DNA from: Achatina immaculata
Lineage: Eukaryota; Mollusca; Gastropoda; Stylommatophora; Achatinidae
Reading direction: 5' to 3'
NCBI GenBank assembly: GCA_009760885.1
Contig: CM019713.1
Coordinates: 27,060,927-27,124,926 of the forward strand
Length of the DNA stretch: 64,000 bases
This document shows, one piece after another, positions 2,048-53,975 of the stretch. The first letter of the stretch is position 1. Every line of letters starts with the position of its first letter. Below the pieces are notes generated by a model. It was not told the DNA's origin. It did not search any database and saw only the letters and a list, made by a program, of their open reading frames with translations. The position numbers were made by a program, and so were the translations under genes.

Positions 2048-2232
2048 CTGAGGGTAATGTCCACATTTCTGTCCACACCCAACTTCTTGCTCAGATAACG
2101 GCGTCGATAAATGAGGCTGACTGCGATGATGATGGCTATGAAGACGAACGAACCAACAAAAGGGGGGAGAATCTCAGGTAAGGTGGTGCTGGAGTTATGT
2201 CCCCTGTCCGGAAGTTGTAGCACTGAAGAGGT
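2048..2232 (-). CDS. Internal exon C of the same gene: transmembrane helix and start of cytoplasmic tail
   Basis: The acceptor is TTCTCTTTCAG and the donor is CTCAG/GTTGGTG. The exon starts in phase 0, gives 61 codons and ends with 2 nt over. About 25 residues of stalk include the sequon NSS. A hydrophobic stretch from FVGSFVFIA to AVSLIY follows, then a basic stop-transfer run (RRRYLSKK) and a short tail (GVDRNVDITLR). This is a type I single-pass topology when joined after exons A and B. The frame stays open for about 30 codons past the donor into sequence that looks like a DNA-transposon remnant, so read-through is less likely than splicing. The next exon was not found in 1-2047 and may lie outside the window. 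Confidence 0.72.
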
Positions 2233-2434
2233 CTGAAAGAGAACATAAACCATAGTGCCTTTCTTAAGTTGGAGGAAGATTTGTAGCTTCGACTATAACT
2301 AATGTGTTATGACTTTAATGTGTTCAAAATATATACATACATACATACGTGCATAACAGCCTCTACAATTAAACTATGAGAAGAAGCTTTAACTATAAAG
2401 TGATAGCAAAAAGCTTTAGCATAGTAATAAGATA

Positions 2435-2641
2435 CATAAAGGTAGAATACCTGTTTCCACGCTATTAAGGCAGATTGGGGATAGAGTGTTAGGCCCGTAT
2501 TTTCCACGACCTTCGGCAGGTGAAAGTGTGATGTGGTCAGTATCACGCCTGACCGCTGTATCTTCCCAGATTTCTCTGGTACCCATTTTTAGAGGCTGGG
2601 TGGACCCCCGGCCCTTGTTGTGTGTAGCAGAAAAAAAATCC
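2435..2641 (-). mobile_element. tRNA-derived SINE (family 2), 3' part, split by a LINE
   Basis: Minus-strand SINE body with the shared core GGTACCAGAGAAATCTGGGA, followed by the CAGGCGTGATACTGACCACA region and the 3' end. Its tRNA-like head lies at 3116-3200, beyond an inserted LINE. The composite is flanked by an imperfect duplication (TAGTAATAAGATACA at about 2422, TAGTAATAATACA at about 3204). Confidence 0.75.
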
Positions 2642-3114
2642 ATCCTTATCAATGAATGTTAGAAAACGAGTCCTAAAATGCTATATTGAACCTATCTTGT
2701 TATATGGAAGTGAATCATGGACAATAGGCAGGTCTGCGCAAAAATCATTGGAAGCAGCAGAAATGTGGTTTATTAGAATAATGTTGCGAATCCCCTGGAC
2801 AGCAAAAATAACTAATGAAGAATGTATGAGAAGAGCTGGAGAGACAAAAAAAATCTTGTAAAAAAATAATAAGAGATAGACGATGTACTTACACAGGACA
2901 TGCAATGAGAAGAGAGGGCATTGACAATATTATAACAACAGGAAAAATAGAGGAAAGAAGATCAAGAGGAAGACCAAGAGAAATGATACTGGACAGTCTG
3001 ACGGGATGGTGTGAGAGGAGATCACCAACTGAGCTGATGGCCTGCATGAAGGATCGTGTACTCTGGAGAAGCATAATAGCCAACGCCAGTCGGCATGGCA
3101 CCTGATGATGATGA
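2642..3114 (+). mobile_element. RTE-like LINE 3' fragment inserted in a SINE
   Basis: Encodes the C-terminal part of an RTE-type reverse transcriptase protein: CYIEPILLYGSESWTIG, IPWTAKITNEECMRRAG and, after a frameshift near 2860, RSRGRPREMILDSLTGWC to the end IIANASRHGT. It ends in a GATGATGATGA tail. The flanks GAAAAAAAATCC (2630-2641) and GAAAAAAATCC (3115-3125) are its target duplication. The sequence closely matches the end of the copy at 59160-60906. Confidence 0.88.
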
Positions 3115-3115
3115 G

Positions 3116-3200
3116 AAAAAAATCCCACTTCTGGAACTTGAACCTGGTATCACAGGATTAGCAGCCTGAGAGTCTAACCATTCAGTCAGCTATGCCGTCA
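3116..3200 (-). mobile_element. tRNA-like head of the interrupted SINE
   Basis: On the minus strand: TAGCTGACTGAATGG, resembling an internal promoter A box, then GGTTCAAGTTCC, resembling a B box, then a GGGATTTTTT-like linker. This is the 5' part of the SINE whose body is at 2435-2641. It is not a functional tRNA gene. Confidence 0.7.
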
Positions 3201-3214
3201 CTATAGTAATAATA

Positions 3215-3948
3215 CAAAGTGATATTTTGGATTTCGACTTTTCCAAACACAAAAACAGACAGAAAGACAAACACAGACAGAAACTCAAACACAGACAGTA
3301 AAAACAATGGGAAAAAAAGGAAGAGGAAATAAAAACGATGAGATGAAGATGACAAATAGGATGTAGCGAAAGAAATTTTCGCTTATCGGATTTTGCAGAG
3401 AAAAGATGCGAAGTAAAGCAGCATACAATTTAAAATATCAGTTTAAAAAGTGAATTACTTAAATGTCTAATTTAATCTTTTGCCACAGACAAATTGGCAC
3501 ATTCTTCTTGCCATTTTACCATTGAAGTAAACTGGATAATGTGTGGCACTTTCACCATCACGTTACCATCATATTTCACATCATAATTATCATCATCATC
3601 ATCACCATCATTACATTCTCTACTCTGTGAACTACAATATTATGTTGACCCCACACAGGTCAAGGTGAAGTTTGTTTTACTTCAGCAAAGTTTGGTCAGT
3701 TTCCTTCTATTAATCGTTATCTTCCTTCTCTACATTTCCCCTGCGTCTGTGCCCAAGTGATGTAGAATATGCTAAATAGAATGAAAGATGTGCTATAGAA
3801 GTCTGTACCAAGTTGTATTGAATATGTTAAATAGAAAGAAAGTTGTGAGATAAAGAACAGAATGTTAGACGGGCATGAGTGCCCAGTTCTTCACGCTTTG
3901 AAAACAACGTTAGTCTACCCGTTGTCTCAGACATTGTAAAACTATCTG
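3215..3948. other. No gene; minor repeats
   Basis: Contains a short CAT/ATC-rich patch near 3590 and, near 3860-3905, a degenerate copy of the CR1-like 3' end (GTTAGACGGGC, CACGCTTTGAAAACAACG). Nothing else was recognised. Confidence 0.45.
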
Positions 3949-4065
3949 TACAGTGGCGTATCTACCAGCCAGAGGTGTACAGTGGCGTATCTACCAGCCA
4001 GAGGTGTACAGTGGCGTATCTACCAGCCAGAGGTGTACAGTGGCGTATCTACCAGCCAGAGGTGT
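3949..4065. repeat. 29-bp minisatellite, 4 copies
   Basis: Unit begins TACAGTGGCGTATCTACCAG; copies are almost identical. Confidence 0.92.
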
Positions 4066-4187
4066 ATAGTTTTCGTTTCAGAGTGCCTGTATTAGTATCA
4101 GTATATTCGCTTTTCTCTGATAGTTTTCCCACTGCTTTCAACAAATACTTTTACCTTCACTTTAACCTCACTTTCATTTCTCCGCGT

Positions 4188-5000
4188 TAATTCATTCATT
4201 CATTCTCATGTCCCTTGCGGAACTTTGCCTCCCTAACAGCATTCCTGTAGGCCTCTCGGTTATGAGCAAGATGGCCTGCTGCTGATGCATCCATTTGCAG
4301 ATCATCAACGATATCTTGCAGCCATCTTCGCCTTGGTCTTCCTCTCTTTCTTTTTCCCATTATGTACTCTTCCAAGATCGTCTTCTCTAGATTATCATGA
4401 CGTTTAATGTGTCCAAAATATTTCAGTTTTCTCTCTTTAATCCTCTTTATTAGCCAGCCTTCTTCAATATTAAGTTCTTGTAGTATGGATATATTTGTTC
4501 TTTTTTGTGTCCATTATATTTGAATAACTCTTCTGTAGCATTTACATTCAAAGGCATTTATGAGTTTCTCAGCTGTTTTGTCTCACAGGCATATGTTGCG
4601 ATTGGAAAGATGCATGCCCTTAAAAATCTTATTTTTGTGGCTCTTTCTGCTCCTCTCCACAAATTCTTTAGTTGTTTTACTTTCTGAAGAGCGATAGATG
4701 CCCTTTTAATTTCCCTCATTGTATCTCCATTATTAGTTAGTAGTGATCCAAGATATTCAAAACTCTCCACTTCTTCCAATTTTTCCTCATTGATATATAT
4801 TTCAGCTGCCTTGTTTGTTTTGTCAGTTGTCATCAATTTAGTTTTCTTCGCATTAAGATAGAGGTTCTGCTCTTCGCTGTTCTTACTGACATAATTAGTT
4901 TTTCCATTCCTTTTTGTGTTGTGGACAGTAATACTGTGTCATCAGCATATCTAATCTCTGGTACTTCATAACCTCCAATTGTAAACATATTTTATATTTA
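4188..5000 (-). mobile_element. RTE-like LINE, 5'-truncated, with target-site duplication
   Basis: The minus strand encodes the RT palm end ([10 protein letters not shown] region) and thumb/C-terminal domain: TTDKTNKAAEIYINEEK, FEYLGSLLTNNGDTMREIKR, TYACET, then KRKRGRPRRRWLQDIVDDLQ and the end FRKGHENE-stop. An (AATG)n tail follows. Frameshifts lie near 4860 and in the C-terminal part. The flanks TTCTCCGCGT at 4178-4187 and 5001-5010 are an exact 10-bp duplication. A related copy is at 20653-21500. Confidence 0.88.
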
Positions 5001-5307
5001 TTCTCCGCGTAAAAATATTTTATAGTGTCATTGCAATCAGCTGTTGGTAATGTGTTTGTCAGACATGGGAATAACTTGTTGAAGAAAACTCATCATGGCT
5101 TTGTTTCCATGTTTTCCCTGCCGCGGGTACGAGCGTGCTGTGTGTAAACTTGCCAGGTACATCAGTTAAATTCAAACCAAACTTCGTAGTAAAACTTTAA
5201 CTTACAACATGCTTATGCTAACTCTGCGTAATTATAACAGACCTAACTGCCATCTTCTGAGTTGGCCGCTGTCGCTGGAGTAAACACTTGTACAATATTC
5301 TCATTTA

Positions 5308-5702
5308 CAGTAGGATCTCTCTTAGTCTGCAACAACGGGACTTAATCGATTTCGGATATGAGATTTTGCCGGATAATTGAACATATATCTAGAGATCTCA
5401 TCTATTCATGTTCTGTGATGTCTTCTATAGAAATGGCAGCATGCGAAGTTCTTTGGTCGTGTTGTTGTATCTACCGGCCATAATTAAATAAACAGGATAT
5501 AAATCGCACGGATTTTTTTTTCTTAAGTTAAAAACACATAATTTTATATTTTACAATACCAAATTTAAACGGCACTGAAAAATGCAAACCCATTGTATAT
5601 TTTTCTTATCTCATAGACCTAAATTTTCGGTTTAAACCTTCCAAAGTGCCGTTGTTTTGGCACTGCCGGTTAATTGGGTGCCGGTTAAGAGAGATTCTAC
5701 TG
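5308..5702. mobile_element. pogo/Tigger-like nonautonomous DNA transposon (MITE)
   Basis: About 395 bp bounded by TA dinucleotides (5306-5307 and 5703-5704). Left terminus CAGTAGGATCTCTCTTAG; right terminus, reverse-complemented, CAGTAGAATCTCTCTTAA. These match at all but two positions over 18. The TA target and CAGTAG termini fit the pogo/Tigger branch of Tc1/mariner. Inside are GCCGG-containing subterminal words and no open transposase. Confidence 0.82.
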
Positions 5703-5704
5703 TA

Positions 5705-6264
5705 CTCTTCAGCATAACGAGAACTGACGGTGAATCAGCTGGAGGCTGCCACTGAGATCTACCGGGGACAACTAACGGCACTGGCGTGCAGGTTGTGTAA
5801 CTGTAAATCTTTTTCCACGTTTATTTTTTTGCAGGCGGAATAAAGATCCAGAGGTCACTAACCCAAAACTGCGTGACAAGCAAGTCAACGTTAGCTTATT
5901 TTATCACAGAACAATCCTATAAATCAACAAATACAGGCTTCTCGGAAAAGCTTATAAGCTTATTTCAGCATGTGAATGAGCATACATATAACTCTGAGGC
6001 ATGTTACTGATTGTGTTCGTGGGAAATCTGCATAGAAACGTACGTCTTGTGTGACAAGTATTGTCTTGCCGTAGGCAGATTACTAATGAAAAGAATAAAC
6101 TCTTCAACATTGTTGACTGCAAAACATTCTTTGAAGCGATAAAACTGGCAAACGTAATCAAAGGATTCACTAAAAGAATTGTAGGAATAAGATTCATATA
6201 GTTTACGAAGGCCAGTGAAGTACAAGGTATTTCAACCCTCGTCTTTCACGTTTTAGAAACTACG
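5705..6264. other. No recognisable feature
   Basis: Unique intronic sequence. Short minus-strand frames around 5952-6225 show no motif. Confidence 0.5.
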
Positions 6265-6640
6265 ATCAGAGAGGAAGACCCGAGAGGAAGATCCGAGAGG
6301 AAGATCAGAGAGGAAGATCAGTAAGGTATATCAGAGAGGAAGATCAGAGAGGAAGACCGGAAAGGAAGATCAAAGAGGAAGATCGTAAGGTATATCAGAG
6401 AGGAAGACCGGAAAGGAAGATCAAAGAGGAAGATCGTAAGGTATATCAGAGAGGAAGATCAGAGAGGAAGATCAGTAAGTTATATCAGAGAGGAAGATCA
6501 AAGAGGAAGATCAAAGAGGAAGATCAAAGAGGAAGATCAGTAAATTATATCAGAGAGGAAGATCAAAGTAAGGTAAACAGTAAGTAAACAGTAAGGTATA
6601 TCAGTAAAGTAAACAGTAAGGTATATCAGAGAGGAAGAAA
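6265..6640. repeat. Purine-rich minisatellite (GAGGAAGATCAGA family)
   Basis: About 13-bp GAGAGGAAGATCA units arranged in a larger unit that ends in GTAAGGTATATCA; heterogeneous. Confidence 0.85.
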
Positions 6641-6721
6641 AAACGGAAAAGATTCTAAAAGTAAAGAGAGACTCAACATCACGTACCATCCCTATAGGGA
6701 AGGTTGCCAGTCATGGAACTC

Positions 6722-6885
6722 CAACGTAACTCCACAGATTATCAATATAACCCACATATTAGCAACGTAACTCCACAGATTATCAATATAAACCACACAT
6801 TAGCAACGTAACTCCACAGATTATCAATATAACCCACACATTAGCAACGTAACTCCACAGATTATCAACATCAACCCACATATTT
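6722..6885. repeat. 41-bp minisatellite, 4 copies
   Basis: Unit contains GTAACTCCACAGATTATCAA. It decays on the right into a looser ACATTACCAACATAAACCCA array up to about 7110. Confidence 0.9.
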
Positions 6886-7110
6886 CCAGCAAAAACTCGC
6901 ACACTACCAGCACACACACACATTACTAATATAAACACATACCGTACCAACATAAATGCCTGCACTACTGCACTATCAACATAAACCCACACCACACATT
7001 ACTAACGTTAAACATATACATTACCAAGATAAACCCACACATTACCAACATAAACCCAACATTACCAACACAAGCCCACATATTATCAACTTAAACCCAC
7101 ATATTACATC
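6886..7110. repeat. Degenerate ~21-bp CA-rich array
   Basis: Variants of CACATTACCAACATAAACCC. Probably derived from the neighbouring 41-bp unit. Confidence 0.75.
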
Positions 7111-8076
7111 CAAAGCCTATACAATAACCCGCTTGCTGGAAAGCAACTATATTTCCCCTTGGAGCCACGTAGAGGAGGAGAGATGTAGTTTGCAAGGTAT
7201 GTAGTTGTTGTAGCTGCCAACAGATTAATTGCCTACGCTCCAGGTAAAAAAAATAATAAAGACGATAACAAAAGCAAAAAAACAACTGCAGAATCTTCCT
7301 GTTCATTCATGTTTTTTTTCTTACAGTTTCATGTCCTTCAATCTTTACAAGAGAAAACAATTTAATGGCCCGTTCTCCACAAAATTTACAAGAACAAAAA
7401 GCCGCTCATGTTCCTTCCCATTTTTGGCAACCTTCCTTTGTTTACTCCACACAAAACAACAACAGCAAACGGATACTTTTTGTTAAAACGCCCACACGTT
7501 CCAGAAATATGCTATACGCGCATACGAACATTTAAGTTTAATTAACCCGAACTTCCATTCCAAATTTCACGAAATTAGAAACATTTTCCTGGTTTCGAAT
7601 AGATGGTTTTCAAGTTTTCATTAACTTTGCTGGCTGGAAACCTTATCTAAAAGAGGGAGACAAAGAGAAAATTATCTACGCCAGCTGACTAAGTGGCACA
7701 AAAAGGGAAAGAGAACAGACAGAGATAGATCCACACAAAACAAAAAGGTTGGGGGCACTGGAGCAGTCTGACACGGCGATGGGTGGTCATCTCAGGAGAA
7801 GGTCATCAGAAGATGGTTGCAGTTTTAAATCGTCATGGTACTAATGGTTGATAGCTAAAATACATGTTGATGAGGCAACTGGTAGCAACAGAGTGAGGAT
7901 TATACAAGATGGGGCCCATGGTGGAGAAGGAAAGCAGAGAGAGGCCAGGCCAGAGAGAGGTCAAGTCAGAAGTAGGAATGAGATTTTCAGAGGCATGTTT
8001 TTTTTGCACGGGGCGTGGCATGTCTGCGACCAAATTGAGACCACCGTGTAAAAACGCAGGGGAAGGTGCGACATTT
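7111..8076. other. No recognisable feature
   Basis: Unique intronic sequence. Short frames on both strands have no motif or convincing splice borders. Confidence 0.5.
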
Positions 8077-8968
8077 CAGCTAAGATACTGTTAGTGCCAG
8101 TTCTAGCTAAGATACTGTTCCTGCAAGTTTCAGCTAAGATACTGTTATTGCAAGTTTAAGCTAAGATATTGTTAGTGCCAATTTCAGCTAAGATACTGTT
8201 AGTGCCAGTTCTAGCTAAGATACTGTTAGTGCCAGTTCTAGCTAAGATACTGTTATTGCAAGTTTCAGCTAAGATATTGTTAGTGCCAATTTCAGCTAAG
8301 ATACTGTTCCTGCAAGTGCCAGTTCTAGCTAAGATACTGTTAGTGCAAGTTTCAGCTAAGATATTGTTAGTGCCAATTTCAGCTAAGATACTGTTCCTGC
8401 AAGTTTCAGCTAAAATACTGTTAGTGCCAGTTTCAGCTAATATACTGTTAGTGCCAATTTCACCTAAGATACTGTTAGTGCCAATTTCACCTATGATACT
8501 GTTAGTGCCAGTTTCAGCTAAGAAACTGTTCCAGCAAGTTTTAGCTAAGATACTGTTAGTGCCAGTTTCAGCTAAGATACTGTTAGTGACTGTTTTAGCT
8601 AAGATACTATTCCCGCAAGTTTCAGCCAAGATACTGTTAGTGCCAGTTTTAGCTAAGATACTGTTCCTGCAAGTTTCAGCTAAGATACTGTTATTGCAAG
8701 TTTCAGCTAAGATACTGTTCCTGCAAGTTTCAGCTAAGATACTGTTCCTGCAAGTTTTAGCCAAGATACTGTTAGTGCCAGTTTTAGCTAAGATACTATT
8801 CCTGCAGGTTTTAGCTAAGATACTGTTCCTGCAAGTTTCAGCTAAGATACTGTTAGTGCAAGTTTCAGCTAAGATACTGTTCCTGCAAGTTTCAGCTAAG
8901 ATACTGTTAGTGCAAGTTTCAGCTAAGATACTGTTCCTGCAAGTTTTAGCTAAGATACTGTTATTGCT
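8077..8968. repeat. 27-bp minisatellite, about 33 copies
   Basis: Unit TTTCAGCTAAGATACTGTTC plus TGCAAG or a GTGCCAG variant. The period is a multiple of three, so both strands stay open for 200-270 codons. These frames are not genes. Confidence 0.95.
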
Positions 8969-9294
8969 AGGCGAAGCCTCCGAATGATGGAGCTCTACTG
9001 ATGAGAAGAGAAATGACGAGACTTTAGGTTACTGAGACACTTACAAGGTCAGAAGGTATTGTATGGGCTATCAGTTATGCGACGTTCTCTGACCACTGTT
9101 AAGCCTACTCGACCTAAATATGAGCAGTAAATAAACCATACATAGCAAGGACTAGTGAGAGTTATGTGCTTCTGATAAGTTTGTTACAATACTCTGAGAT
9201 GGGATGTTGTGACTATGATAGAGACTTAGAGACATTTATAGATTCTCTGCTGCTCAACCTTCCAACATGTTACGCAGCGTGTAGAGAGGGAACG

Positions 9295-10085
9295 CTGAGC
9301 AACCTATTTGAGATGATAACAACACTGAACAACCTCACTGAGATGGTAGCAACACTGAACAACCTCCTTGAGATGATAACAACACTCAACAACCTCCATG
9401 AGATGGTAGCAACGCTAACAATCTCCATAAGATGGTAGCAACGCTAACAATCTCCTTGAGATGGTTAACAACACTGAACAACCTCCATGAGATAGTAGCA
9501 ACACTGAACAACCTCAATGAGATGGTAGCAACACTAAACAACCTCACTGAGATGGTAGCAACACTGAAAAACCTCATTGAGATGGTAGCAACACTGAACA
9601 ACCTCCATGAGATGGTAGCAACACTAAACAATCTCTCTGAGATGATGGTAGCAACACTGAACAACCTCATTGAGATGGTAGCAACACTGAACAACCTCAC
9701 TGAGTTGGTAGCAACACTGAACAACCTGCATGAGATGGTAACAACACTGAACAACCTCCATGAGATGGTAGCAACACTAAACAACAACCATGAGATGGCA
9801 GTGACGCTGAACAACTTCTATGAGATGGTAGCAACGCTGAAAAACCTCCATTAGATGGTAGCAAAACTGAACAACTTTCTTGAAATGGTAACAACGCTGT
9901 AAAACCTCCATGTGATGGTAACAACACTAACTACCTCCATGACATGGTAACAACACTAACAACCTCCCTGAGATGGTACCAACGCTGAACAACCTCCATG
10001 AGATGGTAGCAACGCAGAAAGACTTCCTAGAGGTGCTAACTACACTGAAGGACCTCTCTGAGATGGTGACAACGTTGAAAAAACC
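9295..10085. repeat. 30-bp minisatellite, about 26 copies
   Basis: Unit GAGATGGTAGCAACACTGAA plus CAACCTCCAT, with many substitutions. The period of three codons again yields long artefactual frames. Confidence 0.95.
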
Positions 10086-10187
10086 TCCCTAAACCATCCC
10101 TGCGAGACAATGTTTCAATTCCGAAAAGCCAATCTAGCTGTCGAAGTGAATACTTTCCACCAACTGGACCACATATCCTCTAGTGTG

Positions 10188-10450
10188 CTGATAAGTCTAG
10201 GAAAATATGAGAAATAAAAGCAAATTCACACTAGCTTGCTGATAAGTCTAGGAAAATATGAGAAATAAAAGCAAATTCACACTAGCTTGCTGATAAGTCT
10301 AGGAAAATATGAGAAATAAAAGCAAATTCACACTAGCTTGCTGATAAGTCTAGGAAAATATGAGAAATAAAAGCAAATTCACACTAGCTTGCTGATAAGT
10401 CTAGGAAAATATGAGAAATAAAAGCAAATTCACACTAGCTTGCTGATAAG
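10188..10450. repeat. 51-bp minisatellite, left part (5 copies)
   Basis: Unit starts TGATAAGTCTAGGAAAATAT and is almost identical from copy to copy. The array resumes at 10727 after a SINE insertion. Confidence 0.93.
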
Positions 10451-10726
10451 GGGGCCGGCTAGCGTATTGGTTAGAGCACTCGTCTAGCAACCAAATGGTC
10501 GAGGGTTCGAATCCCCAGCTGAGCGGGATTTTTTTTCCGACCAATACGGCCCTGAGGTCGACCCAGCCTCGTAAAATGGGTACCAGAGAAAATCTGGGAA
10601 GTAAAGGCAGCGAGGAAAGGAACTGGTCACCCTACCTCATACGCTGATGACCCAGCATAATGAGGTCTCTAACGCTTCACCCCCTACGGCATTTGAAATG
10701 CTATGGGACTATCTTTACTTTACTTT
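10451..10726 (+). mobile_element. tRNA-derived SINE (family 1) inside the 51-bp satellite
   Basis: About 276 bp. The head resembles a tRNA with A box (TAGCGTATTGG) and B box (GGTTCGAATCC). It then has a GGGATTTTTTTTCC linker, a body with the core GGTACCAGAGAAAATCTGGG and a CTTTACTTTACTTT tail. The flanks TTGCTGATAAG at 10440-10450 and 10727-10737 are an exact 11-bp target duplication of satellite sequence. A second copy of the family is at 63689-63958. Confidence 0.92.
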
Positions 10727-10764
10727 TTGCTGATAAGTCTAGGAAAATATGAGAAATAAAAGCA
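10727..10764. repeat. 51-bp minisatellite, right remnant
   Basis: Resumes with the duplicated TTGCTGATAAG and ends after most of one unit. Confidence 0.85.
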
Positions 10765-10949
10765 TATCCGCTCTATACTTTGATGGTATGACGGAGCTAC
10801 ATTACCGCACACAAAATGATGAAACGAGGCTTGGGATGAGACGTTTGTCTTTCCACAGTGCACAAGTTGGAAAAATGGCCTTGTGTGTCAGACAAGCAAA
10901 GAAGAGGGACATGAATTTGCTACATATACACACATATATACATACATAC

Positions 10950-11056
10950 CTCATTTGTGAACCTAACAGAAGTAGCATTGGCGTCGTCTGGTAACACAAT
11001 GTCCTTGATGTTACCGGTATGGATAACGCCGTGGTCATTGATATCATATGGATGTC
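10950..11056 (-). CDS. Internal exon B of the same gene: acidic extracellular stalk
   Basis: On the minus strand the exon follows an acceptor (CTATTTCTCTCAG) and ends at a donor (GTATGTATG). It begins with 2 nt (GA) that complete the 1-nt overhang of exon A into a Gly codon, then gives 35 codons and ends in phase 0, as exon C requires. The peptide starts HPYDIND and ends VRFTNE, contains the sequon NAT and is hydrophilic, as expected for a juxtamembrane stalk. A second frame is also open through the exon, but only this frame matches both neighbours. A 94-bp minisatellite starts about 55 bp upstream on the gene's strand. Confidence 0.68.
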
Positions 11057-11111
11057 CTGAGAGAAATAGAAGACAGAGACAAAAATAATGTTACATCGAA
11101 TTTAAGAAAGC

Positions 11112-11956
11112 CAGGACAATGTTCTGAGACAACATAGAAGACAACATAGAAGTAGGTATAACAGAAATTGGTGTCACCAACTGGAGACAGAAGATCTGGA
11201 ATAGGGAGGACAATGTTCTGAGACAACATAGAAGACAACATAGAAGTAGGTATAACAGAAATTGGTGTCACCAACTGGAGACAGAAGATCTGGAATAGGG
11301 AGGACAATGTTTTGAGACAACATAGAAGACAACATAGAAGTAGGTATAAAAGAAATTGGTGTCACCAACTGGAGACAGAAGATCTGGAATAGGGAGGACA
11401 ATGTTTTGAGACAACATAGAAGACAACATAGAAGTAGGTATAAAAGAAATTGGTGTCACCAACTGGAGACAGAAGATCTGGAATAGGGAGGACAATGTTT
11501 TGAGACAACATAGAAGACAACATAGAAGTAGGTATAAAAGAAATTGGTGTCACCAACTGGAGACAGAAGATCTGGAATAGGGAGGACAATGTTTTGAGAC
11601 AACATAGAAGACAACATAGAAGTAGGTATAAAAGAAATTGGTGTCACCAACTGGAGACAGAAGATCTGGAATAGGGAGGACAATGTTTTGAGACAACATA
11701 GAAGACAACATAGAAGTAGGTATAAAAGAAATTGGTGTCACCAACTGGAGACAGAAGATCTGGAATAGGGAGGACAATGTTTTGAGACAACATAGAAGAC
11801 AACATAGAAGTAGGTATAAAAGAAATTGGTGTCACCAACTGGAGACAGAAGATCTGGAATAGGGAGGACAATGTTTTGAGACAACATAGAAGACAACATA
11901 GAAGTAGGTATAAAAGAAATTGGTGTCACCAACTGGAGACAGAAGATCTGGAATAA
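11112..11956. repeat. 94-bp minisatellite, 9 copies, beside exon B
   Basis: Unit contains AGGACAATGTTTTGAGACAA and ends GGAGACAGAAGATCTGGAAT. Copies differ at only a few positions (for example GTTCTG or GTTTTG). Each unit carries a short minus-strand frame starting MSSLFQIFCLQ; this is the repeat, not a protein family. Confidence 0.96.
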
Positions 11957-12279
11957 GGAGGAGTGGAGGCGAACTTTATCTGCAGCAAATGAGCCTTAAT
12001 TGGCTCGGAAAGCTGAAGAAGACGAAGGACAATGTTTTGAAGACAGCGGAGCAATGTGGAAACTCCGTACGTGATCAGAGAAATAGGTTTTCTAAGACGA
12101 GAAATCGATTTGTCCAACTTCGAGGTGGGGTAGACCCCTCTAGGTCTTGATTCCTAAAAGTCTGTGCAGCACTTCAAGGATCAGCAACTTCTGGCTTGCA
12201 GGGCCTTGAATCTCAACACCAGGCGTAAGTATTATTCAGTTTTATTTTTGTTTAATTACTGTGGCCGTCACATATTAGC
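11957..12279. other. No recognisable feature
   Basis: Unique sequence between two arrays. Its left edge is a degenerate end of the 94-bp repeat. Confidence 0.45.
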
Positions 12280-12425
12280 TATGGTGGTAAATGTGGCTCG
12301 GCCAATTACTCATAGCTATAGTGGTAAGTATGGTTCGGCCAATCACTCACATCTATAGTGGTAAGTATGGCTCTGCAAATCACTCATAGCTATAGTGGTA
12401 AGTTTGGCTCGCCAATCACTCACAG
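12280..12425. repeat. ~37-bp minisatellite, 4 imperfect copies
   Basis: Unit resembles TAGCTATAGTGGTAAGTATG followed by GCTCGGCCAATCACTCA. Confidence 0.85.
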
Positions 12426-12513
12426 ACTTGGCATCTGACTCCAGAATGGAAGAAGGTTGCCAACTCCTTCTAAACTTCGAAATTCGTGTTGCTTCTTACC
12501 GTAGCTCATCGCA

Positions 12514-12870
12514 GTTCTGCCAGGCGTGGTAGGATTTAATGTTGTGCATCTTTTTATTTTGTGTTGTTCTGCCTGGTGAGGTGACATTTGATGGTTGTTT
12601 ATCTGTTTATTTTGTGTTGTTCTGCGTGGCGAGGTGACATTTGATGGTTGTTTATATGTTTATTTTGTGTTGTTCTGCGTGGCGAGGTGGCATTTAATTT
12701 GTTTATCTGTTTACTTTGTGTTGTTCTGCCTGGCGAGGTGACATATGATGATTGTTTATCTGTTTATTTTGTGTTGTTCTGCCTGGCGAGGTGACATTTG
12801 ATGGTTGTTTATCTGTTTATTTTGTGTTGTTCTGCCAGGCGAGGTGGCATCTGATGGTTCCATATCTTTT
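12514..12870. repeat. 53-bp minisatellite, 6-7 copies
   Basis: Unit contains GTTCTGCCTGGCGAGGTGAC and TGTTTATCTGTTTATTTTGT. Confidence 0.9.
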
Positions 12871-13727
12871 GAAATAATATGAGCCATTTGAAAATTAATA
12901 AAAGTAAAAAGATAACAATATCCACGTTGTTTTGTTCCACATGTGGGAGTTTGTAATTGTAAACCGCAAGAAATTCCAAGACAGAAGTGACGTCTTCTCC
13001 CTGTGAAACATGGCATCCGTAATCCAGGATAACAAATAAAATATTAGTTTTCTTGTCTCACTGGCTGCTAATCTTAGCAATCTCATTCAATCAAACATAA
13101 ACGAGAAAATGAACTATGTTTGTAATTTCCTGTATTCTGAGATGTTCCCTTTTTTGTTTTTTAGATGATGTCAGAAATGTGATGTATCGACCAGTGAAGG
13201 TTTAATAAACTATAAATACTATTACATATGATTAGGAACTTTAACAGTAAAAATGTAGGTCTACAAATCGCAGAAAAATGGAAGAAAGCTGTCTAGATCT
13301 ACAAAATATTTATAACATTATGGATTATATATTTAACAGTAACCCTCAGAGAATCACCAAAAAAAAAGGGTATATATGTGGACGGCTGATTTACTGTCTG
13401 GGGGTTGGAATCATCCATCTCTCCATCCATGATCAGTTATCGACCAAGCAGTTGTTGTTCAGTACGCCTTGTGGCGTCTTGCAGGTCAGCGATAAGCTCT
13501 CTCATGTTCCCGCTGTCTGCAGCCAACCTTTACTTGGTGTCCCCCTATATGTGCTCATGCTATTCATTTCCGCACCTACAAGTATTCGCTAGGTTGTCTC
13601 TGCTTGATCTCAGACTGGCCTAAAGACTTCGGTTATAAGGATATACGAACCAAAGTTGGCAAAGAACCTGTTCTTCCTTGGCTTTGGCGCTTACAATAAA
13701 ATGCTTAGCTTGGCCAGCTCGCCATTG
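12871..13727. other. Mostly unique; possible degraded coding remnant at 13440-13625 (-)
   Basis: No host exon recognised. On the minus strand 13440-13625 reads peptide-like segments (LRSSRDNLANTCRCGNE, MRELIADLQDATRRTEQQ) in one frame, broken by stops. It may be an old transposon fragment, but no family is assigned. Confidence 0.3.
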
Positions 13728-14312
13728 TCACCATCAGCTGCAGAGCCTGGGGCTATCACTATGAACTGCAGAGCCTGGCGCTGTCACTATGAACTGCAGA
13801 GTCTAGAGCTGTCACCATGAACTGCAGAGTCTAGCGCTGTCAGCATGAACTGCAGATTCTGGCGCTATCACTATGAACTGCAGAGTCTGGCACTATCACT
13901 ATGAACAGCAGAGTCTGGCGCTATCACTATGAACAGCAGAGTCTAGCGCTATCACTATGAACTGCAGAGTCTAGCGCTATCACTATGAACAGCAGAGTCT
14001 GGCGCTGTCACTATGAACTACAGAGTCTGGCGCTATCACTATGAACAGCAGAGTCTGGCGCTATCACTATGAACTGCAGAGTCTGGCGCTATCACTATGA
14101 ACAGCAGAGTCTGGCGCTGTCACTATGAACTACAGAGTCTGGCGCTATCACTATGAACAGCAGAGTCTGGCGCTATCACTATGAACAGCAGAGTCTAGCG
14201 CTATCACTATGAACTGCAGAGTCTGGCGCTATCACTATGAACTACAGAGTCTGGCGCTATCACTATGAACTGCAGAGTCTGGCGCTATCACTATGAACTG
14301 CAGAGCCTGGCC
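13728..14312. repeat. 28-bp minisatellite, about 20 copies
   Basis: Unit CTATCACTATGAACTGCAGA plus GTCTGGCG. Variants alternate ACTGCAG, ACAGCAG and ACTACAG in blocks, suggesting block duplications. Confidence 0.95.
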
Positions 14313-15790
14313 AGAGAACTTGCTTTGTGTGTATCACACTGAGTCCTCAACGTCCTGCGGTGTAACCCGCTCCCCGTCTGATGCAAGGCTTGTACTTCAT
14401 CACCTTCACCATATCCTGGTCTCAGCTCCTGGAAGTTATAACAGCTAGAACCCACTAGAGTGCCCGCGGTCAAGATGAAGACATCAAACATTGTGAAGAA
14501 ACACGAATACGCCAACCACTTCTTTATTCTTGTATTCCTAACTATAATTATACAGAGCGTTTATCAGTTTCTTCTATTTGACATTTTTTCAGTGTGTGAT
14601 CTAAAGCATCAAGGACATATCTAGCTCACAGTTTGTTCCTGTGTTAGTTATAAGCACAGATCGATGTTAATGAAATGAACGGTTACAAGTACAAAAGAAT
14701 GAAAAAAAAATGTAATTAAACTTGAGAAGGTGGAGTTGTTTTCTGATAAGATATTCATCGGCCACGTTAAATATGAAATAAAGCATGGTATAATACCTTA
14801 AAATATTCATTTTTATTTTATTTTACTACTAACCAAGATACAGTCTTATATATTAATACTGGCATTTTGTTTGCATGAAAACGTTTTGGTTCATAATACA
14901 ATTACGGTCATTTGATAAAATTCATGGCCAAGCCGAAAATTATGGGTAATTCTAGAGCAGGTGACCTTACGCTTTTTAATCTACTGCAAACCCTCAGTGC
15001 TTTTCCCAGTTTATTCTTAAATCACATTCACAAGCTTGTTGGAACCCTTCTGTCATCAGAGTGACATTAGTTAAAGGCTGGTAAAGGGAAGTCAGACTTG
15101 CCTCTGTGATTGGGGCCGTTGAAATGTTTAGAGACTGGCTTAGATGCATGCTGGGAGACATCATAAAGATGCTTGTGCATGTGGTCACCTAATCTGAGAC
15201 TGATCATTCCAGTGTAAGGTATCTTTAGAAGAAGAAAAAGAGAAAGAAGCAAAGGAAACCAACAGAAATGGAGTAGGCTGGTCTATGTGACCTGTCTTTT
15301 CACTCTGAATTTTTGGGTATACTAGTCCCGTTCCAATAGATCCACCTGTAGAAATGGATACTAGATACGCTACAATCCAATAAAGAAGGAAAATAAATGT
15401 CTGCAGGGTGAGACACACTGTACCGTACAATGAATGCATGGAGAGCACGATATCACGCGAAATTTAAGCTAGACAGATACGATTCTTCGCACCAGCCCAG
15501 ATGGCCCGAACGTAAACAAAGGAAGCCAAATTGTGTTCAGGCCACAGAATTAGATAAGAGCGAGGTCTCTGCAGGCAATATCTGAATATAATGTCCTATA
15601 CAAACACCGTTACTAGAGTCGCCGGTGAGCATCAGATGATAATGTCTGACAGAGATGTTGTCTTACAATATCTCTTATTACTAATGTGATCACTATTAAA
15701 GCTTCGTAGTAGATTATGGCAGAGTATTTTTATGTTTATCTTTTTTCCGTCTACTATTTACCGCCGCCGAATCACAAGATTTCTGACATT
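14313..15790. other. No gene recognised; contains one dispersed repeat copy
   Basis: Unique AT-rich sequence. A minus-strand frame at 14291-14515 has a signal-like start but no donor compatible with the host gene. 15023-15155 is a copy of the repeat shared with 28515-28620. Confidence 0.4.
15023..15155 (-). repeat. Diverged dispersed repeat, copy 1
   Basis: Minus strand shares CACAGAGGCAAGT, AATCATTTCA-like and GTCACTCTGATGACAGAAG words, in the same order and spacing, with 28515-28620 on plus. Both read a similar peptide (HRGK-[SF]-DF ... CHSDDR). Confidence 0.6.
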
Positions 15791-15925
15791 CCTACTCTGT
15801 GATTACATCGGCCGAAATTATGTCGTTGTTCCTACTCTGTGATTACATCGGCCGAAATTATGTCGTTGTTCCTACTCTGTGATTACATCGGCCGAAATTA
15901 TGTCGTTGTTCCTACTCTGTGGATA
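15791..15925. repeat. 40-bp minisatellite, 3.5 copies
   Basis: Unit CCTACTCTGTGATTACATCG plus GCCGAAATTATGTCGTTGTT; the first three copies are identical. Confidence 0.93.
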
Positions 15926-15984
15926 CACAGACCCATGCTATCTCATTGTTTCTACTCTGGATTACATAGAGACTGTCTCATGCT

Positions 15985-16275
15985 CCCTACTTTATGGCAA
16001 TGAGATACAGCCTCCGACTATATTGAACAATGAGATACAGGACGTGACTATACTGGGCAATGAGATACAGCAAGTGACCATACTAGCAATGATACAGCCC
16101 TCCCCCCGACCATACATGGCAAAGAGATACAGCCCTCGACCATACTGTAAAATGAGATACAGCAAGTGACCATAATGGCAATGATACAGCCCTCCCCCCG
16201 ACCATACATGGCAATGAGATACAGCCCCTAACCATACTGGAGAATAAGATAAAGCCCCCGATCTTACTGGGCACA
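15985..16275. repeat. ~30-bp degenerate array (AATGAGATACAGC)
   Basis: Imperfect units AATGAGATACAGCCCCCGAC plus CATACTGGC, with C-run length variation. Confidence 0.85.
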
Positions 16276-16580
16276 GATATACATCAAATGATCATTTTGT
16301 CTCTTATTGCATATACTTTATGCAGTTGCCATGCGATTTTTACTTTATTATGCGTCATTACATTCATATGCATATCAAAATGTGTGACAAAAGTAGGGCC
16401 CTCTATCTTGAAAAACGCTTTCCTCTTCCCTTCCCTCGTCCTTGAAATGCTCTCGTATATCTTGTGTGCTGACATGAAGTCAGAGATCCATTATTGCATT
16501 CTGGTAATGGTATTTATTAAGGGGACTATGTTCTTCCAGGGCACTCCAACTTTTTGGCACTTGCTATGTTTAGGGAAAAC
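16276..16580. other. No recognisable feature
   Basis: Open frames on both strands here overlap the following CT tract and show no domain. Confidence 0.45.
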
Positions 16581-16587
16581 ACTCCTT

Positions 16588-16646
<59 letters not shown>

Positions 16647-16650
16647 GTCT
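16581..16650. repeat. (CT)n / CTTT tract
   Basis: Pyrimidine microsatellite with CTTT and CTGT interruptions. Confidence 0.95.
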
Positions 16651-16757
16651 GTCTCTTTGTACATGTGGGCGTGTCTCTTTTTCTCTTATACACTGTATAT
16701 AGAAGCATAGTAAATGTATTTTCCTGAATGTGCAGACTGTGTTTTCTATAAAATGAA

Positions 16758-16758
16758 T

Positions 16759-16812
<54 letters not shown>

Positions 16813-16841
16813 TTCTTCTTCTTCTTCTTCTTCTTCTTTTG
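16758..16841. repeat. (ATC)n then (TTC)n microsatellite
   Basis: About 17 ATC units grade into TTC units. The TTC part is the target of the LINE that follows. Confidence 0.95.
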
Positions 16842-17036
16842 CCTTGAATGTAATAGTTAAATCTTACACTCTTTTGATATGTTTTTCCTAATTTAATTTG
16901 TATTTTTTTTTTACTAAATCAAGTGTGTGGGAAGAATGAAAGATGGAGTGATGAAGGGCAGAATGTAAGACGGGCCTGCGTGCCCAATTCTTTACCCTTG
17001 AAAAATAAAGATTATTCATTCATTCATTCATTCATT
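16842..17036 (+). mobile_element. CR1-like LINE 3' end, inserted in (TTC)n
   Basis: Contains only the 3' UTR module (GTGTGGGAAGAATGAAAGAT, GACGGGCCTGCGTGCCCAAT, AATAAAGATT) and an (ATTC)n tail. The flanks TTCTTCTTCTTTTG at 16828-16841 and 17041-17054 match exactly and are likely the target duplication. Confidence 0.85.
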
Positions 17037-17054
17037 CTTCTTCTTCTTCTTTTG

Positions 17055-17417
17055 TCCAAGTTCGTTCTTCATATTAAGCGTTCAGGCCCGTGTGTCAAGG
17101 TGAATGTAGGAGCCTTGTACTCAGAGCAAGGTCTCCAGTTTTCCCAGATTTCACAACATGAGATATTTCTCCTGGAAGTCTCGTCTTTCTAGCTGTGTTA
17201 GGTGACGCGGGTCACTCTGGTGGTGGACGTCTAGCAGTAGACGACACGTTGTGGATACACACGTAGAGATTTAGGACGCTTAATTTTCTTAAACTGCAAG
17301 CACAGGACAAAGTGACGTCGCTACTAGCATCAAGCCTGGCTGTTTGTCCTTCCCCAATTCTACAAGGAACCTGGTACCCATTTATATAGCTGGGCAGGGG
17401 TGGGGGGGGGGACGCCT
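17055..17417. other. No recognisable feature
   Basis: Unique sequence ending in a poly-G run near 17405. Confidence 0.45.
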
Positions 17418-18092
17418 CCGGGTGGACTTGACAACATCTACTTCGTCTTGTGACTTGACGTCTGAGGCTGGACTTGACAACATCTACTTCGTCTTGTGAC
17501 TTGACGTCTGAGGCTGGACTTGACAACATCTACTTCGTCTTGTGACATGACGTCTGAGGCTGGACTTGACAACATCTGCTTCGTCTTGTGACATGACTTC
17601 TGAGGCTGGACTTTGGAACATCTACTTCGTCTTGTGACATGACGTCTGAGGCTGGACTTTGGAACATCTACTTCGTCTTGTGACATGACGTCTGAGGCTG
17701 GACTTGACAACATCTACTTCGTCTTGTGACATGACGTCTGAGGCTGGACTTGACAACATCTGCTTCGTCTTGTGACATGACGTCTGAGGCTGGACTTTGG
17801 AACATCTACTTCGTCTTGTGACATGACGTCTGAGGCTGGACTTTGGAACATCTACTTCGTCTTGTGACATGACGTCTGAGGCTGGACTTGACAACATCTA
17901 CTTCTTCTTGTGACATGACGTCTGAGGCTGGACTTGACAGCATCTACTTCGTCTTGTGACATGACTTCTGAGGCTGGACTTGACAACATCTGCTTCGTCT
18001 TGTGACATGACGTCTGAGGCTGGACTTTGGAACATCTACTTCGTCTTGTGACATGACGTCTGAGGCTGGACTTTGGAACATCTACTTCTTGT
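17418..18092. repeat. 46-bp minisatellite with 4-unit higher-order structure
   Basis: Unit contains CATCTACTTCGTCTTGTGAC and TGACGTCTGAGGCTGGACTT. Two unit types, ending TTGACAACATC or TTTGGAACATC, alternate in pairs, giving a larger 184-bp period. Confidence 0.95.
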
Positions 18093-18299
18093 AGACGAGG
18101 GCGCTAACTACTACTTCTTTCACGTTCCCAGAATGTAATAATGGATCTATGACTGTTTTTTTCATCTGCCAGAGGGAGCTGCTAATTATCTTTTTCCTGT
18201 GAAACATATCTCAAGACTAATTCTACAAATGTTGTGATTGACAACACATGCCTGCCGTGTAAAGTTCTATATCACCTATTACAGTTTGACAATCGCTCT

Positions 18300-18455
18300 G
18301 CATGTCTATCTGTCTGCCTCTCTCTTTCTCTGTGTCTGTTTGTCTGTCTGTCTGTCTCTCCCTCTCAGTCCCTCTCTGTGTCTCTGTCTGTCTCTGCCTC
18401 TGCCTACCTGTTTCTCTTTGTCTCTGTCTCTCTCTCTCTCTCTCACACACGTGAC
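18300..18455. repeat. CTGT/CTCT pyrimidine-rich tract
   Basis: Low-complexity, about 20 bp beyond the exon A donor. Confidence 0.85.
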
Positions 18456-18475
18456 TAGACTTAGACTTTACTCAC

Positions 18476-18883
18476 CAGGTACATGGCTATTTCTGGAACC
18501 ACATTCTCCAGTGGTTGGATCCGGAGCCTGCAGGTCACTCACGCACCAGCACCGCTTGGGCTGGTTGTCCGCCAGTCTGACGCAGTCTGCCGTAAGACCA
18601 CACTGAGCATTGCTTTCACAGGAGCTGTTGTCTTGTCTACTGTTGTTCACCCCAACGCGGCCTTCTGTAGCGGAGAACGGATCATCTGCCACGACAGAGC
18701 CGAAGCTTGCCTGGCTGCGACGAGCGTGTTCAAGAGAGGATAGTTTGAACTTGACCTTGCCAGTCTTCCTGCGTTTTTGTACGTTTCTGTTGTTATTGGT
18801 GATAACACTGTTGTAGCTGGTGTTATTGCTGTTTATGACGGTACTGTTTGGCTCCATATATGTTTCTGGCGATGGTTCAGCTT
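18476..18883 (-). CDS. Internal exon A of a predicted single-pass membrane protein: EGF-like ectodomain
   Basis: The minus strand has an acceptor (TTTAACAG) at 18884 and a consensus donor (GTGAGTAAAG) at 18475. The exon starts with 2 nt of a split codon, then gives 135 codons and 1 spare nt. The peptide is Asn-rich at first, with sequons NST, NNT, NTS and later NSS. A basic stretch (QKRRKTGK) follows. The end has six cysteines spaced C-x5-C-x5-C-x10-C-x-C-x13-C, which fits an EGF-like or EB-type module. Sequons plus a disulfide-type module suggest an extracellular part. It splices in phase to 10950-11056. A Met lies nine codons in, but the good acceptor and open codons before it favour an internal exon. 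The upstream exon was not found. I do not recognise the protein family; the exon call is good, the domain call moderate. Confidence 0.72.
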
Positions 18884-29623: not shown

Positions 29624-31034
29624 AGACAGGAATAAAAATAATAACCAAGTTACTAAATGACATTTACAACAGTGGTTATATGCCCAGTGACCTGCTTAAA
29701 TCCACGTTTATAGCACTACCAAAGAAACCAGTTGCAAAGGAATGTGATGACCACAGGACTATCAGCATCTCATGTCACTTAACGAAGCTATGTCGGAGAA
29801 TTATTATGAGCAGAACAAGGAAAAAGATAAAAAATGGAAATAGGAAATGAATAGTTTGGATTTGTTGAAGGAAAGGGAAACACATAATGCCATTTATGCC
29901 TTACGAACACTAACGGAAAGAGCTTTAGAAGTACAGAAAGATTTCTGCTTATGCTTCATTGGTTACACCAAGGCATTCGACAAGGTGGAACATAATGAAA
30001 TTATTAAAATGATTCATGACATCACAATAGACGGCAAAGACCTGAGGATTGTAAAACATCTATACTGGCAGCAAGAAGCAACAACTCGAGCTGAAAATAG
30101 AACAGGAAAATATCAACATATAAAACAAGAGGTGCGACAAGGATATATACATCTCCAGACCTTTTTTATATGTGCAGCGAGAATATTCTAATAACGATCA
30201 TCACAGACCCAGGTATAAAAATTGGAGGATACAACATTAACAATCTTCGGTATGCTGACAACACAGTAATGATAGCTGAGAACCAACAAGACCTGCAAAA
30301 TCTCCCGGATAAAGTCGCTAAAAAAAGTGAACAGAAAGGCCTTACTTTAAACATAAAAAAGCAGAGACTATGGTTATATCTAAGAAAAAGAATCCACCAA
30401 CATGCAATATCAAATTAAACAGAACTATTCTAAAGTAGGTGCAGAAATTCAAATACCTTGGAGCAGTAATAACTTCAGATGGGAAATGTAGAACAGAAAG
30501 TAGGAACAGAATAGGCCAAGCAAAGACTGCATTTCAGAGAATGAGAAACATATTATCCAACACATCTTTATCAATGAATGTTAGAAAAAGAGTCTTAAAA
30601 TGCTATATTGAACCTATCTTGTTATATGGAAGTGAATCATGGACAATAGGCAAGTCTGCACAAAAATCATTGGAAGCAGCAGAAATGTGGTTTATTAGAA
30701 GAATGTTGCGAATCCCCTGGACAGCAAAAATAACTAATGAAGAATGTATGAGAAGAGCTGAAGACACAAAAAATCTTGTCACAAAAATAAGGGAGAGACA
30801 ACTTACTTTCATAGGAAATGCAATGAGAAGAGGGGGCTTTGAAAATATTATAACAGCAGGAAAAATAGAAAAGGAAGATCAAGAGGAAGACCGAGAGAAA
30901 TGATACTGGACAGTCTGACGGGATAGTGTGAGAGGAGATCACCAACTGAGCTGATGGCCTGCATGAAGGATCATGTACCCTGGAGAAGCATAATAGCCAC
31001 CGCCAGTCTGCACGACACCTGATGATGATGATGA
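29624..31034 (+). mobile_element. RTE-like LINE, 5'-truncated, inactive
   Basis: Begins inside the region before RT motif 1. Visible blocks: [48 protein letters not shown], the palm motif as RYADNTVMIA (second catalytic Asp replaced by Asn), KYLGAVITSDGKCRTESRN, CYIEPILLYGSESWTIG and the end of the protein. At least four stops or frameshifts break it. It ends in a GATGATGATGATG tail and is followed by the 40-bp and 43-bp arrays. Confidence 0.9.
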
Positions 31035-31093
31035 TGCTTGCGTTTGTCGTTTCCTGGTGGGTTCCAGTTGGCTGTGGTGGAACATGCCGTTAG

Positions 31094-31330
31094 AACTTGA
31101 TATTTGTGTCTGGGCACCAGTAGTTTGACATGTAACTTGATATTTGTGTCTGGCCACCAGTAGTTTGACAAGTAACTTGATATTTGTGTCTGGTCACCAG
31201 TAGTTTGACAAATAACTTGATATTTGTGTCTGGGCACCAGTAGTTTGACAAGTAACTTGATATTTGTGTCTGGCCACCAGTAGTTTGACAAGTAACTTGA
31301 TATTTGTATCTGGTCATCAGTAGTTTGACA
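31094..31330. repeat. 40-bp minisatellite, 6 copies
   Basis: Unit AACTTGATATTTGTGTCTGG plus GCACCAGTAGTTTGACAAGT. The reverse complement of the same unit occurs at 40505-40633. Confidence 0.95.
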
Positions 31331-31612
31331 TAGGATATGTGATGTTCTCAGTCCCTGTCAGGTATGTAACATATAGGATATGTGATGTTCTCAGTCCCTG
31401 TCAAGTGTGTAACATATAGGATATGTGATGTTCTCAGTCCCTGTCAAGTATGTAACATATAGGATATGTGATGTTCTCAGTCACTGTCAAGTGTGTAACA
31501 TATATGATATGTGATGTTCTCAGTCACTGTCAAGTGTGTAACATATAGGATATGTGATGTTCTCAGTCCCTGTCAAGTATGTAACATATAGGATATGTGA
31601 TGTTCTCAGTGT
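31331..31612. repeat. 43-bp minisatellite, 6-7 copies
   Basis: Unit AGGATATGTGATGTTCTCAG plus TCCCTGTCAAGTGTGTAACATAT. Its reverse complement forms the array at 40031-40390. Confidence 0.95.
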
Positions 31613-40030: not shown

Positions 40031-40390
40031 CTACACACTTGACAGGGACTGAGAACATCACATATCCTATATGTTACACACTTGACAGGGACTGAGAACA
40101 TCACATATCCTATATGTTACACACTTGACAGGGACTGAGAACATCACATATCCTATATGTTACATACTTGACAGGGACTGAGAACATCACATATCCTATA
40201 TGTTACACACTTGACAGGGACTGAGAACATCACATATCCTATATGTTACACGCTTGACAGGGACTGAGAACATCACATATCCTATATGTTACACACTTGA
40301 CAGGGACTGAGAACATCACATATCCTATATGTTACACACTTGACAGGGACTGAGAACATCACATATCCTATATGTTACACATTTGACAGG
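40031..40390. repeat. 43-bp minisatellite, 8 copies (inverted relative to 31331)
   Basis: Unit TTACACACTTGACAGGGACT plus GAGAACATCACATATCCTATATG, the reverse complement of the 31331-31612 unit. Confidence 0.96.
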
Positions 40391-40504
40391 GACGCAAGTA
40401 GACATCTCACGTACACAGCTGAAAAACTGACACGGCATGATACCAACGCCATCAATCTAGTAACATAAGATGAACATATTGGGGGCTTCGAGTGATGATG
40501 AAGT

Positions 40505-40633
40505 TGAATAATGGATGAAAAATATCAAGTTACATGTCAAACTACTGGTGGCCAGACACAAATATCAAGTTACATGACAAATTACTGGTGGCCGGACAAA
40601 AATATCAAGTTACATGTCAAACTACTAGTGTTC
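40505..40633. repeat. 40-bp minisatellite, 3 copies (inverted relative to 31094)
   Basis: Unit AATATCAAGTTACATGTCAA plus ACTACTGGTGGCCAGACACA, the reverse complement of the 31094 unit. It ends exactly at the LINE junction. Confidence 0.93.
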
Positions 40634-53453: not shown

Positions 53454-53545
53454 GGAATGAATGAATGAATGAATGAATGAATAATCTTTATTTTTAAAGG
53501 GTAAAGAATTGGGCACGCAGGCCAGTCTTACATTCTGCCCTTCAA
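53454..53545 (-). mobile_element. CR1-like LINE 3' terminus with (ATTC)n tail
   Basis: Plus strand: (GAAT)n, AATCTTTATTTTTAAAGGGT, AAAGAATTGGGCACGCAGGC, CAGTCTTACATTCTGCCCTT. It contains only the last ~90 bp of the element, lodged between a GA-rich patch and a GAA tract. Confidence 0.85.
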
Positions 53546-53975
53546 GAAGAAGAAGAAGACAACGACGACGACGAAGAAGAAGTAGTAGAAGAAGAAGAAG
53601 AAGAAAAAGAAGAAGAAGACGACGAAGAATAAGAAGAAGAAGAAGAAGCAGAAGAAGAAGAAGAAGACGACGACGACGACGAAGAAGAAGAAGAAGAAGA
53701 AGACGAAGAAGAAGAAGAAGAAGACGAAGAAGAAGAAGAAGAAGCAGAAGAAGACGACGAAGAAGAAGAAGACGAAGAAGACGAAGAAGAAGAAGAAGAA
53801 GACGAAGAAGAAGAAGAAGAAGACGAAGAAGAAGAAGAAGAAGAAGAAGAAGACGAAGAAGAAGAAGAAGAAGAAGAAGAAGACGACGACGAAGAAGAAG
53901 AAGAAGACGAAGAAGAAGAAGAAGAAGAAGACGAAGAAGAAGAAGAAGACGAAGAAGAAGAAGAAGAAGAAGAAG
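53546..53975. repeat. 430-bp (GAA)n/(GAC)n tract
   Basis: GAAGAA runs punctuated by GAC and occasional GCA. Arg-rich and Phe-rich frames across it are artefacts. Confidence 0.98.

Follow-up and report, generated by a model that had tools for sequence, protein, structure and literature searches.

What gene do three coding exons, set among satellite arrays on the minus strand of a gastropod contig, belong to? The question is posed by a 64,000-nucleotide stretch of the Achatina immaculata genome (assembly GCA_009760885.1, contig CM019713.1, forward-strand positions 27,060,927 to 27,124,926), which is called the window below; its contig is referred to as C3, and positions given without a contig name are counted from the window's first letter. 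Comparison with a second locus and extension past the window's edge suggest, with a probability of about 0.87, that exons A, B, and C, out of a total of ten coding exons or more, supply the ectodomain and the membrane-spanning portion of a Trk-like (Trkl) receptor tyrosine kinase.

A preliminary description of the window had proposed three minus-strand exons with fitting splice sites and chained phases, and these are present where it placed them. Exon A (18883-18476, 408 nt) is entered and left in phase 1 between the acceptor ttaacag and the donor gtgagt, and encodes a sequon-rich N-terminal stretch followed by an EGF-like module. Exon B (11056-10950, 107 nt, phase 1 in and 0 out, ctctcag and gtatgt) encodes extracellular stalk, and exon C (2232-2048, 185 nt, phase 0 in and 2 out, ctttcag and gttggt) the end of the stalk, a transmembrane helix, and a basic stop-transfer sequence. 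Joined, the exons form a stop-free frame of 233 residues including the last split codon, a slight correction to the 231 first counted. On a generic splice matrix, the donors of A, B, and C score 10.9, 8.9, and 6.1 bits and the acceptors of B and C 12.1 and 8.9 bits; exon A has a weak acceptor, whose 2.3 bits place it in the 75th to 90th percentile range of same-strand AG sites. The GC fractions of the three exons are 0.515, 0.439, and 0.497, compared with 0.413, 0.406, and 0.394 in their flanks. A scan of both strands of the window gave no convincing candidate for a further exon; its coding score was trained on exons A to C themselves, which makes their own top rank circular.

Both introns hold several tandem arrays, in keeping with the earlier picture of a gene scattered between satellites. 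The intron between A and B (11057-18475, 7.4 kb) includes arrays at 11113-11962, 13738-14311, and 17423-18088, among others, and that between B and C (2233-10949, 8.7 kb) includes arrays such as 8074-8967 and 9291-10067 together with retroelement fragments, for instance at 4196-4938. Self-repetitive sequence makes up 52% of the window and includes none of the exon bases. The array at 11113-11962, nine 94-bp units of about 99% identity, ends 56 bases before exon B begins, and a change in its copy number could influence splicing.

The six-cysteine EGF-like module (18501-18620, minus strand) has the spacing C-x5-C-x5-C-x10-C-x-C-x13-C. Across 50,313 residues translated in six frames, a loose EGF pattern picked out two open frames of at least 40 residues, that of exon A and one in a minisatellite. 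The 192 ectodomain residues read contain eight N-x-S/T sequons, and the stalk, which had been called acidic, is mildly so and not more than that. A hydrophobic, presumed transmembrane segment of 21 residues, LPPFVGSFVFIAIIIAVSLIY (2107-2169, minus strand, judged by eye), is followed by RRRY. The view of a type I protein that crosses the membrane once and carries one EGF-like module is upheld. An AlphaFold2 model of exon A, built on a two-row alignment, is poor overall (mean predicted local distance difference test score, pLDDT, 46); block means at the EGF-like module reach 57-76, with two short strands, and the rest of the exon stays below 50. A PDB search with the three-exon peptide returned two matches, the best with an E value of 1.3, which were read as chance.

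The same genome holds a second copy. A search of its 1.65 Gb (145 contigs) scored nine candidates and returned four matches, namely exons A, B, and C of the window plus a single site on another contig, C30. There, relatives of A, B, and C lie within 80 kb in the order and on the strand seen in the window (tblastn E values 8e-18, 2.5e-4, and 1e-8), at C30:24103191-24102760, 24080777-24080671 (40% identity), and 24078195-24078014 (39% identity), respectively. Because C30 carries all three with order and strand kept, the linkage of exons A to C is independently confirmed. All six cysteines and every spacing of the EGF-like module are identical in the C30 gene, its hydrophobic segment aligns with that of exon C (a single helix was judged by eye in both copies), and it can be spliced, in identical phase, at the place corresponding to the weak acceptor of exon A. 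Over nine exons, including those beyond the window described below, the phases are identical to those on C3 and the frame is stop-free (501 residues versus 497 on C3); the tenth C3 exon has a C30 match at 24032971-24032771, with 67% identity over 67 residues.

Outside this genome, one match, P0001, emerged from 241 candidates in a search across 5.8 billion proteins; it is 85% identical over 129 residues without gaps (E 7.2e-65) and retains the cysteines of the EGF-like module. P0001 ends in PGE, exactly where the window frame ends when it is read through the exon A donor, and because of this coincidence it is most likely a genomic copy of exon A from elsewhere. Further protein searches found the same single match among 21 candidates and none among 1126, and in viral contigs two stretches fit a pattern, neither of which encodes a relative. 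P0001, together with a C30 gene that keeps exon order, strand, and phases, substantiates the proposal of a real split gene. Lack of any orthologue with the same exon order had been set as grounds for rejection; C30 answers this in part, with a paralogue that keeps order and phases.

Past the edge of the window, comparing the C3 and C30 loci located more of the gene, in keeping with the expectation that further exons lay out of view. Seven more exons chain in phase on the minus strand, namely K1 (C3:27055992-27055820), K2a (C3:27050148-27050072), K2 (C3:27042299-27042212), K3 (C3:27040093-27039972), K4 (C3:27032618-27032445), K5 (C3:26997296-26997138), and K6 (C3:26991951 to a stop at 26990788). 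The frame read on C3 therefore comprises ten coding exons and 884 residues, from exon A at C3:27079809 to the stop. The junction between exon C and K1 splits an Arg codon, read as AG plus G in C3 and AG plus A in C30, and the residues that follow are conserved. In the C3 frame a juxtamembrane NPTYF is followed, in order, by the GEGAFG loop, the VAVK lysine, HRDLATRN, DFG, and the YTTDYY activation loop of a complete kinase, which Pfam assigns to the tyrosine kinase family PF07714 (E 4.4e-91). NPTY precedes the kinase in both copies, and the activation loop reads YTTDYY in C3 and YTNDYY in C30. After the kinase end, VMYLSDY, the genomic reading of C3 continues as a tail of 338 residues in a single open exon. 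Because the frame runs in phase into a complete kinase beyond the window, the gene is a receptor tyrosine kinase.

Trkl receptors have been described from Aplysia, Lottia, Daphnia, and several insects (bee, wasp, and aphid), with a layout of an EGF domain or fragment, one transmembrane segment, an NPxY motif, and a Trk-like kinase with YXXDYY, to which the Aplysia and Daphnia proteins add a C-terminal extension (PMC2772990). All five features are present here: EGF module, single transmembrane segment, NPxY, Trk-like kinase with YxxDYY, and C-terminal extension. In a PDB comparison covering the best 60 of 823 matches, the C3 kinase scores 294 bits with both TrkB and TrkC, 284 with TrkA, 259 with MuSK, 251 with ROR1/ROR2, and 248 with INSR among the single-domain matches listed; of all matches listed, the highest summed score belongs to an EGFR chain with two kinase copies, at 153 bits each. 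BLAST of the complete C3 kinase likewise ranks TrkB (279 bits) above MuSK (254 bits). In a tree of 14 kinase rows, several of them partial and none a previously described Trkl, the C3/C30 pair is supported at 97/93 and falls outside the DDR (100/100) and ROR (100/99) groups. The gene had been called uncharacterised and of no recognised family; its downstream exons give a Trkl receptor, a family already published in molluscs and arthropods. The C3 and C30 genes are accordingly new members of a known family, with two old copies in the genome.

Several observations weigh against this assignment. Pfam does not call the EGF module, either in the three-exon peptide (no families) or in the longer chain, and a Foldseek search with the exon A model gave three matches (best E 6.7) in which no EGF module was recognised. 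Among the 5.8 billion proteins, the one relative is the short exon A frame, and none joins the exons. Constraint between the copies is weak in the N-terminal part of exon A (20% identity). An exon upstream of A is implied by its acceptor, yet neither such an exon nor a start codon of the C3 gene was found: the best 25 of the filtered C3-C30 pairs, judged by eye, contain no convincing conserved upstream exon, and a strict scan for a signal-peptide exon gave one unconvincing candidate across the 105 kb covered upstream on C3 and none across 39 kb on C30. Leucine-rich repeat (LRR) or immunoglobulin (Ig) exons may lie upstream of exon A. Finally, the assignment of both genes to Trkl rests on layout and kinase similarity, with Trkl itself compared by description.

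The alternative that survives best, though unlikely, is a receptor tyrosine kinase of another branch of the Trk superfamily, MuSK/NRK-like or gastropod-specific, that gained an EGF module independently. The C30 kinase, read to K5, scores slightly higher by BLAST with MuSK (234 bits) than with TrkB (224 bits), and the tree resolves neither its deep branches nor a link between the C3/C30 pair and Trk; both points count against a Trkl identity as well. However, the complete C3 kinase favors Trk over MuSK by 35 bits, and NPTYF, the EGF module, and the long tail fit the published Trkl layout. Published trees place Trkl with Trk and not with ROR and NRK, and a GQGAFG loop is an NRK feature (PMC2772990); the MuSK/NRK-like genes of this genome that carry GQGAFG sit elsewhere.

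Considerably less probable is that the gene is the snail's true Trk, a neurotrophin receptor with an altered ectodomain. Its kinase is Trk-like and preceded by NPxY, the ectodomain of Lymnaea LTrk is unusual (PMC2772990), and exons upstream of C3 exon A are unread. Trk and LTrk ectodomains bear LRR and Ig domains (PMC2772990), and Pfam reports neither family among the exons read, from A onward. Against this reading stands a kinase at C1:13.89 Mb that is closer to Trk: it is 57% identical to TrkB over 226 residues, compared with 50% over 268 for C3, is closest to TrkB among the compared rows, and has a VYSTDYYK loop together with an open frame that resembles a transmembrane exon of its own.

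There is slightly less still to recommend the idea that exons A to C form a separate secreted or membrane gene and that the kinase exons belong to a neighbor. The kinase part does begin 7 kb past exon C, in retroelement-rich DNA, but the phase at the C-K1 junction fits in both genes despite the split Arg codon, conserved residues follow it, and two loci on different contigs share order and strand. Chance open frames without any gene, suggested by the weak exon A acceptor and the many repeat-borne open frames of the window, are discounted by the conserved second copy, the outside relative P0001, protein-level constraint, and the continuation into a kinase.

That constraint differs along the Trkl gene. 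Exons A to C are 36% identical between C3 and C30, with proportions of nonsynonymous (pN) and silent (pS) differences of 0.43 and 0.73, as against 0.73 and 0.77 after codon order was randomised in one copy (200 shuffles). The values of pN and pS are 0.57 and 0.80 for the N-terminal part of exon A, 0.33 and 0.71 for the EGF module, 0.34 and 0.93 for exon B, 0.37 and 0.58 for exon C, and 0.10 and 0.79 for the kinase, which is 80% identical. Silent sites are near saturation, and the duplication is therefore old. The Stylommatophora underwent a whole-genome duplication (PMC9392753), and C3 and C30 are perhaps a pair from that event. Among the open-licence papers listed on the topic, we found no account of two Trkl copies within one mollusc.

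Other receptor kinases of the genome are also found in pairs. A genome list of 112 matches, drawn from 150 of 250 candidates scored, forms the basis of these counts, which hold among the matches listed. MuSK-like kinases occur on C8 and C22, and in the PDB the C8 kinase matches MuSK best (356 bits). For the ROR kinases of C8 and C3, the C8 sequence scores 380 bits with ROR1; for the DDR-like kinase exons of C13 and C17, that of C17 scores 261 bits with DDR2. Like Trkl on C3 and C30, each of these kinds lies at two places on different contigs. One Trk-like gene turned up, on C1. Paired kinases would fit an old whole-genome duplication such as that known from land snails (Li. immaculata, n=31; PMC9392753).

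The window contains further repeats. One non-LTR (long terminal repeat) retroelement is present as two inverted copies about 8-11 kb apart, at 29624-31610 (plus strand) and 40032-41409 (minus strand), and each has the same pair of tandem arrays behind it, first with a 40-bp and then with a 43-bp unit, that are 88-98% complementary. In 284 kb from both loci these arrays occur at only these two places, and other copies of the element exist; the pair may have arisen by a single inverted duplication, or the element may bring its arrays with it. An AAG microsatellite of 432 bases (53544-53975) lacks stops for most of its length in all six frames; its long frames are not genes.

For the Trkl genes, a simple model of action would follow receptor tyrosine kinase biology and the work on the Aplysia receptor ApTrkl, of which the original report is reportedly that of Ormond et al. 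in 2004; we know of no direct ligand established for Trkl receptors. A stimulated C3 receptor would self-associate, and its YTTDYY loop would then be autophosphorylated. Phosphorylated NPTYF could recruit a Shc-like adaptor with a phosphotyrosine-binding (PTB) domain, leading to Ras/ERK signaling, most likely in neurons. ApTrkl is reported to respond to serotonin, with no response to mammalian neurotrophins (PMC2772990), and control of the snail receptor would be expected to be serotonin-dependent, rather than neurotrophin-dependent, in the same way. Neither copy has its frame interrupted in the exons read, and the outer parts show far faster divergence than the kinases; the two receptors might therefore conceivably have turned to different stimuli after the ancient duplication, splitting an Aplysia-type serotonin/ERK memory receptor in two, although this is doubtful. 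With the ten-exon structure of two Trkl genes mapped, the parts kept in a short ectodomain can be compared. More generally, the locus illustrates how long, repeat-filled introns can push a diagnostic domain out of view, such that a gene mimics an orphan membrane protein.

Among known systems, MuSK/NRK, ROR, and DDR are related tyrosine kinases, but each has a better-matching gene or pair elsewhere in this genome. The C3 gene shares kinase similarity, the activation loop, and the NPxY motif with Trk and LTrk; it differs from them in that the exons read contain no LRR or Ig domains and a more Trk-like gene exists separately on C1. Trk receptors end in a PLC-gamma tyrosine consensus, P(VIS)YLD(IV)L(GE), which ApTrkl is described as lacking (PMC2772990); the C3 tail ends in NEYSTPIKLNL and does not fit it. 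In contrast to ApTrkl and Daphnia Trkl, which are described without a signal peptide (PMC2772990), the exon A acceptor of C3 implies an upstream exon. The closest likeness is nonetheless to ApTrkl and other protostome Trkl receptors, with which the C3 gene has in common a small ectodomain with an EGF-like module, a single transmembrane segment, NPxY, a Trk-like YxxDYY kinase, and a long C-terminal extension. Likened to the described receptors by this published layout, the Achatina genome stands apart in holding two copies, 36% identical over exons A to C.

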